A DNA stretch of 64,000 nt, taken from the NCBI GenBank assembly GCA_902620405.1, contig CACNIC010000004.1, positions 1 to 64,000 of the forward strand. The letters run 5' to 3'. Under the pieces are notes generated by a model that saw only the letters and a list, made by a program, of their open reading frames with translations, did no database searches and was not told the DNA's origin. This document shows positions 5,087-64,000 of this stretch, in pieces (within the stretch, counting starts at the first letter, position 1; each line of letters starts with the position of its first letter). Origin of the DNA: an uncultured SAR202 cluster bacterium (GTDB lineage: Bacteria; Chloroflexota; Dehalococcoidia; Lucifugimonadales; Lucifugimonadaceae). Position numbers and translations under genes: made by a program.

Positions 5087-6591
5087 ATTTCTATACTTTT
5101 AAATACTTGAGGAATGAAAGATATCACATCAGATGCTGTCATTGAAGTACTTCCTTTACAATCTCTAGATAACTTTCCTGAATTAGAGTGTATATATGTG
5201 GCTATAATTGCGGCATCTTTAATTTTCATTTTAGGGTAAGATGCTATTCCTCCAATAAGCCCAGTAAGTACATCGCCCATTCCAGGCTTAGACATTCCGC
5301 CATTTGGTGATGTATTTATGACCATTTCTTTCCCATTAGCAATAAATGTAGAAGGGCCTTTTAACAACAAGCACATATTAGTTTTTTTAGTAAAATTTAG
5401 GATTTTTTTGAAAATGTCTTCATAATCTTTAAATTTATAAATTTTATTAAATTCGCCAAGATGAGGTGTAAGAATTGTTGTCGATGGTAATTTTTCCCAC
5501 CAATATTTAATCTCACTTAAGATATTTAGTGCATCTGCATCAATTACGATGTTATGTCTGTTTTTTGTATTATTAATGTAATTCAAAAAACTATTAATAA
5601 TTTCTTTGGATTTTTCATCCTGACTTAACCCAACTCCTAAAGATATTGAAGAAAACCTTTTAAAATATTTCTCTTCGCTAAAAGAAGATGTAAATAAAGT
5701 TATTTCTGGTGACTTTTCTATTATTTTCTTGGCAATTGAACCTTCAGTTAAAACTGCTGTATGGCCAGTGCCAGACATGTTTGATGACTTTGAGCATAAT
5801 AATGCTGCTCCTGGATACTTATTTGAACCACCAATTATCAAATGAGAACCAAATTTATTTTTGTACAATGTTTCAGGTCTTTTTGGAAACTTCTCTTCGA
5901 TTATATTAGGGGTAAGTGCCTCAAAATTAAAATTTTGTTTTTTTAATTCACTTCTTTTAAAACCAATATCAACATAATTAATTTTTTTGAAAGTTTCAGG
6001 ATTTAATATGCTTTTTTTTAACTGTGATCCAAGAATTATTATTTCGTCTGAGATAAATGTATTTTTATCTTTTAATCCACTTTCAGGATCAAAACCTGTT
6101 GGAATATCAAGTGAAAAAATTGTTACTTTGTCATTTTTTTTGCATAAACTATTTAAAAATTTAATTTTTAAACTTAATTCCGGTTTCAAATTGCCTCTTG
6201 AAGAAATACCAATTATTGCATCAAGAATTATTATGTTGTCTTTGTTTTCTTTAATTTCTTTAGTTAATAATTTTTTATCAAATTCTTTGACATTTATGTT
6301 TTCATTTTTTGAAAAAATTAAGTTCTTGTTTGACGAATTTTTTTCGATACACGACACAAATTGAACATTTTCACTTCCAATCTCTTTTTGAATCAATTTT
6401 CCAGCAATTAATCCGTCTCGACCATTCATCCCTGGTCCAAAAAAAATGAATACCGCGGAAGGATTTTTTTCAATAATTAACTGACTTATTCCTCTTGCGG
6501 CTCTATGTTGAAGAATGCTTTTATTATTACTTTTAATAAGGTATTTTTTTTCAACCCTTTTAATTTCTTTTGGCGACAGTATTGGTATCAT
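5083..6591 (-). CDS. nnr: Bifunctional NAD(P)H-hydrate epimerase/ADP-dependent dehydratase
   Basis: Repairs hydrated NADH/NADPH: the N-terminal YjeF_N domain epimerises and the C-terminal ribokinase-like domain dehydrates using ADP or ATP. The 502 residues match the fused bacterial form. The N domain shows FFGPGMNGRDGLIAG near residue 51. The C domain begins near 240, with IGGSNKYPGAAL, LTPHLGEF and the catalytic NGGMSKPGMGDVLTG. It shares a base with the acpS stop and overlaps coaX. Clustering with acpS and coaX is commonly seen in bacteria. Confidence 0.94.
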   Translation of the reverse strand: MIPILSPKEIKRVEKKYLIKSNNKSILQHRAARGISQLIIEKNPSAVFIFFGPGMNGRDGLIAGKLIQKEIGSENVQFVSCIEKNSSNKNLIFSKNENINVKEFDKKLLTKEIKENKDNIIILDAIIGISSRGNLKPELSLKIKFLNSLCKKNDKVTIFSLDIPTGFDPESGLKDKNTFISDEIIILGSQLKKSILNPETFKKINYVDIGFKRSELKKQNFNFEALTPNIIEEKFPKRPETLYKNKFGSHLIIGGSNKYPGAALLCSKSSNMSGTGHTAVLTEGSIAKKIIEKSPEITLFTSSFSEEKYFKRFSSISLGVGLSQDEKSKEIINSFLNYINNTKNRHNIVIDADALNILSEIKYWWEKLPSTTILTPHLGEFNKIYKFKDYEDIFKKILNFTKKTNMCLLLKGPSTFIANGKEMVINTSPNGGMSKPGMGDVLTGLIGGIASYPKMKIKDAAIIATYIHSNSGKLSRDCKGSTSMTASDVISFIPQVFKSIEI

Positions 6592-6965
6592 CAGTGCATA
6601 ATCACCATTGCTGTTGCTAATTCTTTTGAATGACTAATGCTAAGCTCAATTTTTTTTATACCAATAAAATTAGCTCTTTCTTTCGCTCTACCATGTAATT
6701 TTATAAATGGTTTTCCAGATGGTAATCTTTGAACTTCAATTTCTTTCCATGCAACTCCTCTAGTACCTGTTCCTAAAGCTTTCATTGTAGCTTCTTTTGA
6801 TGCAAATCTAGCAGCTAATTGGGTAGCTCTACCTCTACAATAATTTCTTTCATATTCGGTAAAGATTTTTTCAAGGAATCTTTTTGGATGTTTAGTCAAG
6901 ACATGTTTAATTCTATTAATTTCAATTATGTCTATTCCGCTGTGTATTTGATTGTTATCGTCCAT
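6591..6965 (-). CDS. acpS: Holo-[acyl-carrier-protein] synthase
   Basis: Transfers 4'-phosphopantetheine from CoA to acyl carrier protein, linking this CoA operon to fatty-acid synthesis. It has 124 residues, normal for AcpS. Diagnostic motifs are GIDIIEINRIK near the N terminus (metal-binding Asp), FASKEATMKALGTG (catalytic Glu/Lys) and SISHSKELATA near the end. It is the first gene of the minus-strand operon. Its ATG faces folD across a 44-base intergenic region that must hold both promoters. Confidence 0.95.
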   Translation of the reverse strand: MDDNNQIHSGIDIIEINRIKHVLTKHPKRFLEKIFTEYERNYCRGRATQLAARFASKEATMKALGTGTRGVAWKEIEVQRLPSGKPFIKLHGRAKERANFIGIKKIELSISHSKELATAMVIMH

Positions 6966-55281: not shown

Positions 55282-56649
55282 TTATGCTCCCCATGGGATA
55301 ATTTGTTCTTTTAATTTCTTGTATCCATCTAAAAATCCTGGTCTTTCACCAGAATAAATTTCATCAAATTTATTTAAAGCATGGTCTAGCCATGAACGAA
55401 GTTCTTTATTCTCAGGGTTTGCATCGATGTATGCATCTCTAATTAAAACAAAATGGATTCTTGGATCATAAGGTTGCTTAGTTCCTCCAACCCATTCATC
55501 TCCATCTAATAATCTAAGTAGCATTGCATCAGCTGAGCCCAATGTCTGCTCATGAATTGGTGGGCCCTCCATTCTATACATTACAGATGTCATATCTCTC
55601 CCATTTCCTGTTGTATATCCCATCTTGTTCCATAGATTATTTGTATCAACATTATTACCTAGTTCTTTTGCAACCATTCCTGAATAAGTTCTTAGGGGAT
55701 CAGATATGTCTGCAAGAAGGTCAGTAAGCCTGTCTCCGTCTAGATCGGTAGAAAGTACAATAGTATCTTGCTTATTTATAAGATCCCAAACTAAAAGTCC
55801 ATAATTTGTATCTGCTATGTGTTGTTCTATTTTTCCAGACCAATTTTCCATTCCATCTTTAAAATCAGGTGGCAATAATTTAATTATTTTTTCGATACTT
55901 TCTCTGTGTTCCTCATATGGATCAACTGCATATTTTCTACCAATTTCAAACTTTGTATCTTTTATTAACCAAGAATGAATCCCGGCATTTATTCCATCTT
56001 CCATTGCTTGAGTAGGTTTCATTGCAATTCTACCGATTGAACCGCTTTCGTTAACCATTTTTAAAAATAGTCTGTTCGCATAAGCCATTTGCACCCCAGG
56101 TGAGTTCATTTCTGAATGAATTACACCCGAATCGTCTACATTAAATTTAGGTTTATTTTGAGAATAGGGAAGACAAGGCATACTTCTTACTACTGTTATA
56201 GGTCCGTAAGGCCTTACATTACAATAAACTCCAGCCTGCGTTCTTAAATGAGCGTTTCCAGATTTTCCCATCACAACAACTTTGTTGCCATTACCATCAT
56301 TTACATATGCATCACCTGCAGTAGACCATTTAATTGAAGTTGCAGGAATATTTCCAAACCAAGCCAATGCCTCTAGTTTTGTGTCATGCCTGAATTGTGA
56401 CCACATAGGAACCGCATAAAAAGGTAGCCCTAAAATATCAACCGCAGCAATTGTTCCAAGTAGGGCATACGCATCAGTAAGTGAGTGAGCTATAGGATTA
56501 ATAATCCCGTCATGATTTCCACCTTCCCATACTACTGCTTCAGGATACCCATTGGGCTTAATATCTGAATCTCGGTATAAATTAGATAACTCTTCAAATA
56601 AATTTCCGCCATCTGCTTCTGTCTTTGCTATTTTGAGCAAGTCAATCAT
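55282..56649 (-). CDS. Unrecognised 455-residue protein in a central-carbon gene run
   Basis: A long, soluble protein without signal peptide or membrane helix. It contains polar and aromatic stretches such as EAVVWEGGNHDGIINP near the N terminus, VMGKSGNAHLRTQAGVYCNVRPYGP near residue 128, DLDGDRLTDLLADISDPLRTYSG near 305 and RMEGPPIHEQTLGSADAML near 358. The acidic DLDGD and the HD/RT residues could be metal or phosphate ligands, but I can name no family. It sits between mdh and the acyl-CoA carboxylase beta gene, with gaps of 15 and 17 bases, so it is probably co-expressed with them. Composition matches its neighbours. Confidence 0.75.
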   Translation of the reverse strand: MIDLLKIAKTEADGGNLFEELSNLYRDSDIKPNGYPEAVVWEGGNHDGIINPIAHSLTDAYALLGTIAAVDILGLPFYAVPMWSQFRHDTKLEALAWFGNIPATSIKWSTAGDAYVNDGNGNKVVVMGKSGNAHLRTQAGVYCNVRPYGPITVVRSMPCLPYSQNKPKFNVDDSGVIHSEMNSPGVQMAYANRLFLKMVNESGSIGRIAMKPTQAMEDGINAGIHSWLIKDTKFEIGRKYAVDPYEEHRESIEKIIKLLPPDFKDGMENWSGKIEQHIADTNYGLLVWDLINKQDTIVLSTDLDGDRLTDLLADISDPLRTYSGMVAKELGNNVDTNNLWNKMGYTTGNGRDMTSVMYRMEGPPIHEQTLGSADAMLLRLLDGDEWVGGTKQPYDPRIHFVLIRDAYIDANPENKELRSWLDHALNKFDEIYSGERPGFLDGYKKLKEQIIPWGA

Positions 56650-59154: not shown

Positions 59155-59645
59155 TGGAAACTATTGTTATTTCGTTAGGCTCAAATTTAGGCAATAGAGA
59201 ATTGTATTTAAATTCATCAATAAGACATTTATCAAAGAAACTTAAACATATTTATTGCTCATCAACATACGAATCTGAAGGCATAGGTGTCTTTAATCAC
59301 CCAAGTTATCTTAATAGAGTAATTTATTGCAAAACAAATTTATCATTTACGTCTCTTCTAAATTACACAAAGAAAATTGAAAAGATTATTGGTAGAAAGA
59401 GTAAAAATGACCTCTCTCCAAGGGTTATTGATATTGATATTATTTTTTATGGAGAAAGAAAAGTTCATAGGAAAAATTTAATATTACCCCATATTAATTT
59501 TGCTATGAGACCATTTGTAGTGGTCCCAATTAATGAGTTGGATAAAAAGATGAAAAGGAAATTAACAAAGAAATTTAAAAATTTTTTAATTCATACAAAT
59601 ATTTCAAGCAAGTTATCAGGCAATATTGTTCAAAAGGTCAGCTAA
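59154..59645 (+). CDS. folK: 2-amino-4-hydroxy-6-hydroxymethyldihydropteridine pyrophosphokinase
   Basis: A 163-residue kinase that activates the pterin used by folP. It opens with SLGSNLGNRELYLN and contains the catalytic DIDIIFYGERKVH and LPHINFAMRPFVVVPINEL. It is co-translated with folP. It overlaps the convergent membrane-protein gene by 30 bases. Confidence 0.93.
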   Translation: METIVISLGSNLGNRELYLNSSIRHLSKKLKHIYCSSTYESEGIGVFNHPSYLNRVIYCKTNLSFTSLLNYTKKIEKIIGRKSKNDLSPRVIDIDIIFYGERKVHRKNLILPHINFAMRPFVVVPINELDKKMKRKLTKKFKNFLIHTNISSKLSGNIVQKVS

Positions 59646-60053
59646 AAGGAAAATTAAAACACCCCATATTGAGAATGAGTTATAACCCAAGACCCATTCT
59701 TTAAGCCTTGATCCGTATTTAGGATAACCAGTATTTCTAAACTGCCATATCCTAAATAATATTCCAATACTAATTAATATTTTTACACCAAGTATTATTG
59801 CGTAATTTATATCAGTTTGAACAAGAGATAATTTTTGAATAGTCATTATTATTCCTGTTAAAAAAATTAAAATCATTGAGCCATTTACAATTTCCCTTAA
59901 AGTAGATGAAATAATTATAAATACTTTGTTTGAGTTATCTAGAATTTTAAAGTCATCATTTAAGGTAATTCCTATCATAAACACGCACCCTCCTAGCCAT
60001 ATTGAAGCAGATATTGAGTGAAATAAATTTACTATGAAAATCAGTATATCCAT
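59616..60053 (-). CDS. CopD-like four-helix membrane protein
   Basis: A 145-residue membrane protein with about four helices. LFHSISASIWLGGCVFMIG near the N terminus resembles the CopD-domain pattern with an early histidine and WLGG. It directly follows the thioredoxin-like lipoprotein gene (start one base after its stop). This pairing could mean copper or haem-related electron transport. The similarity is weak, so unknown-function membrane protein is an equal reading. Confidence 0.55.
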   Translation of the reverse strand: MDILIFIVNLFHSISASIWLGGCVFMIGITLNDDFKILDNSNKVFIIISSTLREIVNGSMILIFLTGIIMTIQKLSLVQTDINYAIILGVKILISIGILFRIWQFRNTGYPKYGSRLKEWVLGYNSFSIWGVLIFLLADLLNNIA

Positions 60054-60554
60054 TTAATTATTTATTTTTTTAAGTTGTTCAATAAGGTTTTCTTCATCAA
60101 GATATCCAGTCCATTTTTTTGAAAGTTTATGATTTTTATCGAAGAAAAGAGTTGTTGGAAATCCTAAAACATTAAAATCATTAACTAAATCACCATTTTC
60201 ATCATAAATATTTTGGTATTTGATATTAAATTTATCAATTAATCTTATTGAGTCTTCTTTTTTATCAACTAAAGAATTATGAACAATTCCTAAAAATTTA
60301 ACTTTATATTCATCTTGATTATCAAATTTAACTAATGTTGGTAATTCCTTTGCGCATGGAGGGCATGATGGATACCAAAAATTAATTACTATTGGAGTTC
60401 CTATAAATTCTTCTGAATTAAATTCACCGCCATTAATTAGTTCAGCTTTAATTGGTAGAAAACTATCATCTGGTCCAGAACAGCTTGCAGTAAATAAAAT
60501 AAATATAAATAAAAGCTTAAAGTTAAAAACTTTTAAGCATTTTCGAAATTTCAT
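60054..60554 (-). CDS. TlpA/ResA-type thioredoxin lipoprotein
   Basis: A 166-residue exported thiol-disulfide oxidoreductase. The lipobox is FTASC (Cys25). The redox motif CPPC lies in FWYPSCPPCAKELPTLVKF, typical of TlpA/ResA proteins that reduce cytochrome-c haem-site or CuA-site cysteines. The start is ATG 60554, giving MKFRKC and a good signal; ATG 60566 would add four residues. It overlaps the end of the upstream glyS gene by about 32 bases, and no internal start avoids this. Confidence 0.86.
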   Translation of the reverse strand: MKFRKCLKVFNFKLLFIFILFTASCSGPDDSFLPIKAELINGGEFNSEEFIGTPIVINFWYPSCPPCAKELPTLVKFDNQDEYKVKFLGIVHNSLVDKKEDSIRLIDKFNIKYQNIYDENGDLVNDFNVLGFPTTLFFDKNHKLSKKWTGYLDEENLIEQLKKINN

Positions 60555-61830
60555 TTTTAATATCATCTATTTTGACTCTTATCTGGTCCATTGTGTCTCT
60601 ATGTCTAAGTGTAACGCAGTTATCAGTTTCAACAGTATCAAAATCTATTGTTAAGCAAATTGGTGTACCAATTTCGTCTTGCCTTCTATATCTTTTGCCA
60701 ATACTTTGGGTGTTATCAAACTGCGCCCTAAACTCACTTTTAAGACTCTTGTATATTTCCTCACTAGTTTCAGCTAATTTTTCATTTTTACTTAGGGGCA
60801 AAATAGCTACTTGTACTGGAGATATTTGCGGTTTAAATCTAAGTACAGTTCTTTTATCTCCATCAACTTCTTCTTCCCTATATGCATCACATAAAATAGC
60901 TAGAACGGTTCTATCTGCTCCCATGGCTGGTTCTATAACGTAAGGAATATATCTTTCTTTAGTGCTTTCGTCGAAATAACTTAAGTCTTTTCCGCTCTTT
61001 TCTGAATGACTTTTTAAATCGTGATCACTTCTATTATTTATAGTCTCAAGTTCACCCCAGCCCCAAGGAAAATTATATTCAATATCTAATGCTGCTTTTG
61101 CATAATGCGGTTTTTCATCATCAGTATGAGCTCTTTTTCTCAGTTTATCTTCACTTAAACCTATATTAATGAACCACTCTTTACTAAAATTTATCCAGTA
61201 TTCGAACCATTCATCTGCCTTGTCAGGTTCACAAAAAAACTCCATCTCCATTTGTTCAAATTCTCTTGTTCTAAAAATAAAATTCCCCGGAGTTATTTCA
61301 TTTCTAAATGATTTACCAATTTGCCCAATTCCAAAGGGAATTTTTTTTCGTGTTGAGGTCATCACATTCTCAAAATTAACAAATATTCCTTGAGCAGTTT
61401 CTGGTCTTAAATATATTTCAGAGCCCTCTTTTTTAACTGGTCCCATATGAGTTTGAAACATTAAATTAAATTGTTTGGATTCAGTTAAATCGCATTCACT
61501 TTTACTTAAAGGGCAATTTCTTTCTTCAATTTGATCTTCTCTGAATCTATTGTGGCATGCTTTGCATTCTACTAATGGATCAGTAAAGCCGGATATATGG
61601 CCACTTGCTTCCCATACACTTGGGTGCATCAAAATTGCAGAATCAATTCCTTCAATATCTTCTCTTTCTTGAATCATGTGGTGCCACCACATTTCTTTTA
61701 CTCTTCTCTTTAATTCAATTCCTAGTGGTCCAAAATCCCAGACACTTCTTAATCCACCGTAAACTTCACTTCCTTGGAAAATAAATCCCCTTCTTTTAGT
61801 TAAAGAAACTATTTGATCTAAAGTTGGCAA
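60523..61830 (-). CDS. glyS: Glycyl-tRNA synthetase (dimeric, archaeal/eukaryote-like type)
   Basis: A class II synthetase of 435 residues that charges tRNA-Gly. It has motif 1/2 features (LKRRVKEMWWHHMIQ, FRNEITPGNFIFRTREFEQMEMEFF) and motif 3 near VIEPAMGADRTVLAIL. A zinc-binding insertion with CKACHN...CPLSKSEC is visible. It is the alpha2 form found in actinobacteria, Thermus and archaea, not the alpha2beta2 form. The start is TTG at 61830, with GAGGTG 5 bases upstream; the longer reading from 61911 would add 27 hydrophobic residues. Gene symbol follows the one-gene naming. Confidence 0.94.
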   Translation of the reverse strand: MPTLDQIVSLTKRRGFIFQGSEVYGGLRSVWDFGPLGIELKRRVKEMWWHHMIQEREDIEGIDSAILMHPSVWEASGHISGFTDPLVECKACHNRFREDQIEERNCPLSKSECDLTESKQFNLMFQTHMGPVKKEGSEIYLRPETAQGIFVNFENVMTSTRKKIPFGIGQIGKSFRNEITPGNFIFRTREFEQMEMEFFCEPDKADEWFEYWINFSKEWFINIGLSEDKLRKRAHTDDEKPHYAKAALDIEYNFPWGWGELETINNRSDHDLKSHSEKSGKDLSYFDESTKERYIPYVIEPAMGADRTVLAILCDAYREEEVDGDKRTVLRFKPQISPVQVAILPLSKNEKLAETSEEIYKSLKSEFRAQFDNTQSIGKRYRRQDEIGTPICLTIDFDTVETDNCVTLRHRDTMDQIRVKIDDIKNEISKMLKSF

Positions 61831-61900
61831 ATCAGCACCTCGTTTATGTATTATATAAATAATAAATATTAAGTTTACACATAAATAGTTTAAAAAAGCA

Positions 61901-62668
61901 TTGAATTCCAATCAATTAAGAGAAAAAATTAGAAATAATCAATTTAATGAGCCCACTTGTGGCTACGCAAAAGGTTTTATTCAAACAAATCTTGTAATAA
62001 TTGAAACTAAATATGCCGATGATTTTAATAAGTTTTGTGATAGTAATCCTAAGCCTTGCCCAATTGTAGAAAGGCTTGAAGGTGGCTCTTTTAATCCAAA
62101 TTCTGCAAAAAATTCAGACTTGAGAACCGATATTGTTCTTTACAGGAAGTTTATTAATGGGGATTTTGATTGTGAATTAAATAATTTAACTGATGAATTA
62201 TCTTCCGAATTCACTGCATTCCTTCTTGGTTGCAGTTTTTCTTTTGAAAATGCATTAACCGACTCGGGTATTTATCTTCCTCATTTTGAAAAAAAAGGAA
62301 ATGTAGCTATGTATTCTACATCTTTAAATACAAGGCCTTCTAAATATTTTTCAGGACCTTTGGTAGTTTCAATGAGATGGATACCTGAAGATAAAGTGGA
62401 TCAAGCAGTTAAAATAACCGAAAAATATAAAAAAAACCATGGTGGACCAATCCATATAGGTGATCCGTCTAAAATCGGAATAAATTCAATTGAATCACCT
62501 GATTTTGGAGAATATTGGAGTCCATTAAATAAAAATGACGTACCTGTATTTTGGGCTTGTGGTGTAACACCTCAATTATCACTTCAGAAGTCAAAATTAC
62601 CATTAGTTTATACACATTCACCAGGATATATGTTTGTTACTGACCTAAAAGAAAATGAATACTCATAG
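61901..62668 (+). CDS. DUF1445-family protein (first half of a split D-glutamate cyclase pair)
   Basis: A 255-residue protein resembling the bacterial DUF1445/putative hydro-lyase family: CGYAKGFIQTNLVI, FCDSNPKPCPIVERLEGG, LRTDIVLYRKF, FLLGCSFSFENALTDSG and GPLVVSMRWIP are all present. In the mammalian D-glutamate cyclase DGLUCY, a DUF1445-like domain is fused to a DUF4392 domain. The next gene here matches DUF4392. It starts with TTG, 70 bases from the divergent glyS start, and overlaps the next gene by 14 bases. Catalytic duty of this domain alone is uncertain. Confidence 0.87.
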   Translation: MNSNQLREKIRNNQFNEPTCGYAKGFIQTNLVIIETKYADDFNKFCDSNPKPCPIVERLEGGSFNPNSAKNSDLRTDIVLYRKFINGDFDCELNNLTDELSSEFTAFLLGCSFSFENALTDSGIYLPHFEKKGNVAMYSTSLNTRPSKYFSGPLVVSMRWIPEDKVDQAVKITEKYKKNHGGPIHIGDPSKIGINSIESPDFGEYWSPLNKNDVPVFWACGVTPQLSLQKSKLPLVYTHSPGYMFVTDLKENEYS

Positions 62669-63512
62669 ATCAATAGAAAAAATAGTATTGCAGAACGATA
62701 CTAGAAATATTTCAAGTTTAGAAATTTTTTTAAAACCAAACTTTATAAATTCAGCTGCAAAAATAATTCTTAAGAATAAAGGAACAGTCTTTATAACTAC
62801 AGGTTTTTATATTGTTTATGCTAAAGCTTCCGAGACCGATGGCCCACCAGGCGCAATAGCTCTAGGTAATGCGTTAAAAAAAATAGGCTATAAAGTTGTA
62901 TACATAACTGATAAATGGTCTCTTGAAATATTAAAAGGTATGACTAATGACTTAATCATCGATTTTCCAGTTAATGATCATGAAAATTCAAAAGAGTTTG
63001 CTATTAATTTAATAAATGAACTAAAACCTTCAGTATCAATAAGTATTGAAAGGGCTTCATTAATGGAAGATGGGACTTATAGGAATTGGAAAAACCAAAA
63101 TATATCCGAGTATAATGCGAAACTAGATTATATTTTCAGTAACACTTCAAATACTATTGGAATAGGAGATGGCGGAAATGAAATTGGTATGGGGAACCTA
63201 TTTAATGAAATAAAAAAAACGGATGGCCTTCCTGATAAACCTGCAGTAACAAAGGTTGATGAGCTTATTGTTTCAAGTTGCTCAAATTGGGGAGCTTTTG
63301 GATTAATATGTTCAATCTCAGAAATTAAGTCAATTAATTTATTGCCAAGCCTTGATGACGCCAAAAATTTGATAAAAAAAAGCGTTGATCTTGGCGCAGT
63401 TGAAGGTTTAACCGGTGAAAAAAAGTATGCCGTCGATGGAAGAGATCTTGATGAAGATTCAATTTGCCTCAACAATCTTCATGAATATTTGAAAAATAAA
63501 TCTATTCTTTAA
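62655..63512 (+). CDS. DUF4392-family D-glutamate cyclase-like protein
   Basis: A 285-residue protein matching the C-terminal DUF4392 domain of D-glutamate cyclase. It shows VFITTGFYIVYAKASETDGPPGAIALGNAL near residue 51, SIERASLMEDGTYRNW near 134, GIGDGGNEIGMGN near 169 and EGLTGEKKYAVDG near 253. D-glutamate cyclase turns D-glutamate into 5-oxo-D-proline, allowing removal of D-glutamate from cell-wall debris. It is translationally coupled to the DUF1445 gene by a 14-base overlap. The 3' end overlaps the convergent MFS gene by 11 bases. Confidence 0.88.
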   Translation: MNTHRSIEKIVLQNDTRNISSLEIFLKPNFINSAAKIILKNKGTVFITTGFYIVYAKASETDGPPGAIALGNALKKIGYKVVYITDKWSLEILKGMTNDLIIDFPVNDHENSKEFAINLINELKPSVSISIERASLMEDGTYRNWKNQNISEYNAKLDYIFSNTSNTIGIGDGGNEIGMGNLFNEIKKTDGLPDKPAVTKVDELIVSSCSNWGAFGLICSISEIKSINLLPSLDDAKNLIKKSVDLGAVEGLTGEKKYAVDGRDLDEDSICLNNLHEYLKNKSIL

Positions 63513-64000
63513 GAGTTTCTGGCAATAAAAAGCTAAAAATAATTACCCCTATTCCGCCTATCATTGAAATTGATAATGCTGAAGCAGTATTACCAACAGT
63601 TTGTGCAATAGCTCCGCTTATTGGTCCTCCAGCAGAATTTCCAGACCAACCAAACAATCTCCATATTCCCAAAAAGGATCCAGGCTGATTTTTTGGAGAA
63701 AGATCTGAACCCAAAGTTAACATTGCACCTGAACCTAAACCATTTGCAAATCCAAGAAGCAATCCAACTAGCATTAGTCCGTAGAAAGTATTTACGTATG
63801 TCATAAATATAAAACCAGAAGATAAAAGTATTATGCTAGGTACTGAAGTCCATTTTCTGCCATATTTATCCATAATTAACCCAACAGGGTAAAATAATGT
63901 CATGTCAATTGCTGCAGATATACTTTGAATTAATCCTAATTCTTCAACTCCTAAACCTATACTAAATGCCCAAATTGGTATTAATACATGTCTGCATTGA
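63502..64000 (-). CDS. MFS transporter, C-terminal part (partial at right edge)
   Basis: The frame is open from the stop at 63502 to the right edge of the window, so the ATG at 63903 is internal. About 166 C-terminal residues are visible with five or six helices. The cytoplasmic MFS motif GLIMDKYGRKW appears near the cut end, and GFANGLGSGAMLTLGSDLSP and ETLKE are typical of the superfamily's second half. The substrate is unknown. It lies convergent to the D-glutamate cyclase genes. Confidence 0.83.
   Translation of the reverse strand, partial: QCRHVLIPIWAFSIGLGVEELGLIQSISAAIDMTLFYPVGLIMDKYGRKWTSVPSIILLSSGFIFMTYVNTFYGLMLVGLLLGFANGLGSGAMLTLGSDLSPKNQPGSFLGIWRLFGWSGNSAGGPISGAIAQTVGNTASALSISMIGGIGVIIFSFLLPETLKE

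Follow-up and report, generated by a model that had tools for sequence, protein, structure and literature searches.

The last two kilobases of the analysed window (the whole 64-kb stretch of DNA) encode a DUF1445 protein and a DUF4392 protein in consecutive, overlapping reading frames, and this pair was found to be conserved as a two-gene unit throughout the order to which the host bacterium belongs. Given the domain identities, the conserved adjacency and gene order, the conserved metal ligands and the presence of pxpABC in the host genome, we lean towards reading the pair as a translationally overlapping module for the use of exogenous D-glutamate. The features of the region are as follows.

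60523-61911, minus strand: glycyl-tRNA synthetase reading frame, divergent from the pair
61836-61900, no strand: short gap between the pair and the divergent glycyl-tRNA synthetase gene, expected site of the pair's promoter (position inferred)
61901-62668, plus strand: DUF1445 / PF07286 D-Glu_cyclase protein (UPF0317, YcsI-like), 255 aa, TTG start
62655-62668, plus strand: overlap of both reading frames, 14 bases
62655-63512, plus strand: DUF4392 / PF14336 GLUCM-like_C protein, 285 aa, ATG start
63502-63999, minus strand: MFS transporter gene, converging on the pair

Identification of the gene pair

The original prediction of DUF1445 and DUF4392 as consecutive overlapping genes was confirmed by Pfam, and its coordinates and 14-base overlap were exact. 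The first protein matched PF07286 at residues 106-248 (E=1.2e-56, 191 bits against a cut-off of 25), and nearly its entire length was matched by the PDB relatives PSPTO_5379 (2PIF) and Atu3911 (3DB9). Its alignment to nearly the full NCBIfam profile NF003969 ('putative hydro-lyase') scored 321.8 bits, slightly below the cut-off of 324. The TTG at 61901 is the sole ATG, GTG or TTG start for this frame, and three cysteines (Cys53, Cys111 and Cys220) were invariant in all 47 aligned DUF1445 sequences.

The second protein matched PF14336 at residues 21-275 (E=2.3e-63, 214.8 bits against a cut-off of 27.9), and nearly all of it was matched by TON_0340 in the PDB (4DWZ, 5GL2-4 and others), whose metal-binding acids are E59, D61, E115, D157, E161 and D246 (PMC5132392). 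The predicted metal ligands E60, D62, E132, D172, E176 and D261 of the window protein correspond to these six and did not vary among the 47 aligned DUF4392 sequences. Structure prediction from two-row alignments gave mean pLDDT values of 30.5 and 37.6 for the two proteins, too low for a usable model.

A contig scan with tight patterns yielded a single relative, PBWZ01000023.1 ('Chloroflexi bacterium isolate RS659'), in which both reading frames are present with the identical overlap and 91-92% amino acid identity to the window pair. This contig places the window in Chloroflexota and, together with the AT-rich, small genome and its gene content, suggests that the order is SAR202. The dN/dS ratios between the two contigs were 0.119 and 0.112 for the two frames, indicating purifying selection on both genes, and a chance overlap or a spurious reading frame was thereby ruled out.

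The 14-base overlap fits translational coupling, and the two genes probably form a single transcription unit. No sigma-70 match was found in 61836-61900, and a scan for promoters and terminators gave fewer matches than in shuffled sequence. The listed TTG start of the glycyl-tRNA synthetase frame overlaps the DUF1445 start, and its true start probably lies about 25 codons further in. An MFS gene was present downstream of the pair in most sampled members of the window's family. Elsewhere in the window, two proteins without a Pfam match were noted on the minus strand: one of 455 aa at 55282-56649, which adjoins an acyl-CoA carboxyltransferase gene, and an apparent membrane protein of 145 aa at 59616-60053.

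Conservation of the pair in the order and across Chloroflexota

Among 147 genomes of the order, DUF1445 was found in 116, DUF4392 in 118 and both in 114 (Fisher p=5e-23, uncorrected for kinship). In 105 of the 114 genomes holding both, the genes lay on one strand at most 3 kb apart with DUF1445 always first; the reverse order was found in none of the 147 genomes. Such adjacency in constant order in 105 of 147 genomes argues that the pairing did not arise by chance. Genes in high-GC relatives were called with a codon model, since shadow reading frames displaced the real genes. Across the 39 loci sampled, which represent 28 or more families of the order, the pair was constant while its neighbours varied, and a larger operon of fixed composition was ruled out because the neighbours differ between families. 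Separately, in five of the families sampled, DUF4392 was followed directly, on the same strand, by a 477-aa protein without a Pfam match (L059:9466-10896; also L036, L045, L049 and L056).

Both families were rarer in 251 genomes from across the phylum, with DUF4392 in 29 and DUF1445 above the cut-off in 42. In another Chloroflexota family, the genes are adjacent in the opposite order, DUF4392 then DUF1445, with a 4-base overlap at locus L087 (5001-5897 / 5894-6706). The adjacency thus survives rearrangement, which points to a functional tie between the two genes.

The window pair consists of two reading frames, and no polypeptide carrying both domains was found in the genomes examined, including the open frames reported for the order. 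Not one fusion was seen in some 390 Chloroflexota genomes, which is consistent with separate genes as the ancestral state that the original prediction had raised, though gene order differs between lineages. The fusion is found in vertebrates, while invertebrates have DUF4392 alone (PMC5339696); together with the separate genes in all bacteria examined, this distribution is likewise consistent with an ancestral split.

The pair had also been predicted to be a two-part enzyme, and in its obligate form this was not borne out: each family also occurs without the other, so that an obligate two-part enzyme is unsupported. DUF1445 occurs alone in B. subtilis and several Chloroflexota families, DUF4392 occurs alone in other Chloroflexota families and is present in archaea without DUF1445 (PMC5132392), and the genomes with either family alone include high-completeness ones. 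An obligate heteromeric D-glutamate cyclase with neither subunit active alone is therefore unlikely in our assessment, although the conserved adjacency, overlap and order and the vertebrate fusion would all suit it. Over 40 loci, the distances of one protein correlate with those of the other (r=0.67), as a heteromer would lead one to expect, but shared descent alone could yield that correlation. TON_0340, moreover, forms homodimers and has an active site of its own (PMC5132392), and pxpA separates the two genes in Pseudoalteromonas. Two proteins of one pathway, with or without a complex, is the more economical reading.

Association with 5-oxoprolinase genes

In the mouse, a single protein with the two domains fused forms 5-oxo-D-proline from D-glutamate (PMC5339696), and D-glutamate as the substrate of the bacterial pair is proposed by analogy with this enzyme. 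The host genome (0.97 Mb, 70% complete) encodes complete pxpA, pxpB and pxpC genes side by side at G000:C2:114625-117085, on a different contig from the pair. The pair did not adjoin pxpABC at any of the 39 loci sampled from the order. By genome content, PxpA was present in 78 genomes of the order, 76 of which also carry both genes (Fisher p=1.7e-10, uncorrected for kinship), while 38 genomes hold both genes without PxpA. In those 38 genomes, either the product must have another fate or PxpA was missed through incompleteness. As an observation on the pxp locus itself, pxpABC in the host is followed by genes for oxaloacetate decarboxylase gamma and beta, a biotin carrier, a DHDPS-family protein and a TauE exporter (L071:7626-13719, equivalent to G000:C2:114625-120718), and genes for oxaloacetate decarboxylase beta, the biotin carrier or both lie close to pxpABC in other genomes of the order (L072, L075, L076, L078, L079 and L080).

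An operon of Pseudoalteromonas with the architecture GH3 - DUF1445 - pxpA - DUF4392 - class IV aminotransferase provided the best independent evidence connecting the two families with 5-oxoproline and D-amino acids. The GH3 protein is N-acetylhexosaminidase-like (190 bits, under its cut-off of 207), and the aminotransferase is nearest to D-amino-acid transaminase (251 bits, under the cut-off of 277). This operon resembles the window in holding both families within one unit but differs in that pxpA lies between the two genes and that sugar and D-amino-acid genes are included. Plasmids of Klebsiella, Paracoccus and Roseateles carry operons of the form NRAMP - pxpA - DUF1445 - pxpBC. In B. subtilis, YcsG, encoded in the ycsI/pxp operon, is a Mn2+ importer (PMC10448178). 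We counted as support for the module that TON_0340 needs Mn2+ (PMC5132392) and that a Mn2+ importer is thus encoded with ycsI and pxp genes.

Source of D-glutamate

Above-cut-off matches to glutamate racemase (MurI) were found in 0 of the order's 147 genomes and to MurD in 1, and controls gave the expected positives. The lone MurD match (G083:C48 and C56, 405.8 bits) is probably contamination. SAR202, to which the order appears to correspond, reportedly makes no peptidoglycan (PMC10444878, PMC11994032), and as the order lacks MurI and MurD, any D-glutamate should be external. Scavenging from bacterial cell walls, as first suggested from the window, is therefore a sensible source, and the retention of the pair across a peptidoglycan-free order points to feeding on the D-glutamate of other bacteria. 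Within the window, the genes flanking the pair included none recognisable as serving D-glutamate uptake or wall breakdown.

Proposed pathway and alternative readings

In the module that we favour, the DUF4392/DUF1445 pair would act on D-glutamate set free from the peptidoglycan of other bacteria and cyclise it, yielding 5-oxoproline. DUF4392 would supply a two-Mn2+, carboxylate-lined active site, and DUF1445 would either assist the same reaction or handle the 5-oxoproline product. The lactam may then be opened to glutamate by the PxpABC encoded elsewhere, or 5-oxoproline may remain the end product. The substrate, the division of labour, any physical interaction and the processing of a D-configured product are all inferred here, and the literature found contained no D-glutamate cyclase assay on a bacterial member. 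Counted against the module were the solitary occurrences of each family, the location of the pair away from pxpABC, the 38 genomes without PxpA and the report of TON_0340 as a phosphatase.

PxpABC acts on 5-oxo-L-proline. Since the product of the mammalian cyclase is 5-oxo-D-proline, the pathway has a stereochemical gap. A possible though doubtful alternative is that the two proteins are sequential enzymes, in which DUF4392 would cyclise D-glutamate with Mn2+ and DUF1445 would be a cofactor-free 5-oxoproline racemase or epimerase, or another 5-oxoproline-handling enzyme, feeding 5-oxo-L-proline to PxpABC. A racemase in this position would bridge the D-to-L gap. Cofactor-free racemases often have two cysteines in the active site, and the invariance of C53, C111 and C220 in DUF1445 would suit such an activity, but the family has no racemase homology. 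The genomic context agrees with a role of DUF1445 in 5-oxoproline metabolism, as the gene lies inside pxp operons even without DUF4392 (in B. subtilis and on the plasmids described above), follows pxpC at locus L095 and is present in 77 of the 78 PxpA-bearing genomes of the order. 'Sequentially linked biochemical functions' have already been proposed for the two families (PMC5132392), but humans, who have both domains, excrete mainly 5-oxo-D-proline (PMC5339696), which argues against efficient racemisation there. In its fullest version, the pair and PxpABC would constitute a complete route from D-glutamate to L-glutamate in a peptidoglycan-free ocean lineage, and one member of the pair, in all likelihood DUF1445 in view of its invariant cysteines, would be a 5-oxoproline racemase that has so far escaped notice and enables the L-specific 5-oxoprolinase to complete the conversion; we regard this as an improbable conjecture.

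The D-glutamate name may also have been inherited from the mouse protein only, the true substrate being another small acid or a phosphorylated compound. The Mn2+-dependent phosphatase activity reported for TON_0340 would agree with this, but the activity was weak and unspecific (PMC5132392). The neighbours of the pair vary within the order, and rhizobial and Paraburkholderia DUF4392 genes adjoin genes for a PLP dehydratase, RidA or an 'alanine racemase', with DUF1445 not directly adjoining. Against these observations, DUF1445 turns up repeatedly with pxp genes, and in the Pseudoalteromonas operon both families are associated with pxpA and a D-amino-acid-transaminase-like gene; we thus consider a different substrate very unlikely, and the use of exogenous D-glutamate remains our preferred reading.

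Relation to known systems

Mammalian DGLUCY (C14orf159 / 9030617O03Rik) contains both domain families with DUF1445 N-terminal and DUF4392 C-terminal, matching the gene order of the window; the latter differs in having two separate overlapping genes, in being bacterial and in that its cyclase activity is putative. The split form is already known and ordinary in bacteria. DUF1445 and DUF4392 have been described as separate genes that are fused in higher animals (PMC5132392), and a survey of gut genomes listed GLUCM_HUMAN with 0 full-length and 6 split homologues (PMC11580864, Table 1). Those DGLUCY homologues share the split arrangement in nearby bacterial genes, but they come from gut genomes, whereas the present pair is kept order-wide in a marine Chloroflexota order without peptidoglycan genes. 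TON_0340 of Thermococcus onnurineus (4DWZ, 5GL4) shares all six metal-binding acids and about 36% identity with the window DUF4392 protein but is archaeal, has no DUF1445 partner and was characterised as a Mn2+ phosphatase. The window DUF1445 protein is 44% identical to 2PIF in the matched region and so resembles the YcsI / UPF0317 proteins; the members of that group in pxp operons lie among NRAMP-pxpABC genes, whereas the window gene adjoins DUF4392, away from pxpABC. What is new is that the pair is conserved order-wide, that it is tied to a lineage that lacks peptidoglycan and has pxpABC, and that a second Chloroflexota family carries the overlapping genes in reversed order.

Wall-derived D-amino acids are a poorly understood deep-ocean resource (PMC6946804), and the literature search found no paper that joined SAR202 with D-glutamate in substance. 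Both protein families are widespread and poorly characterised, and an order-wide two-gene unit in bacteria without peptidoglycan offers a clean setting for the role of each D-glutamate cyclase half. If the D-glutamate reading is true, the pair would provide a concrete gene pair for the use of wall-derived D-amino acids by marine SAR202-type bacteria.
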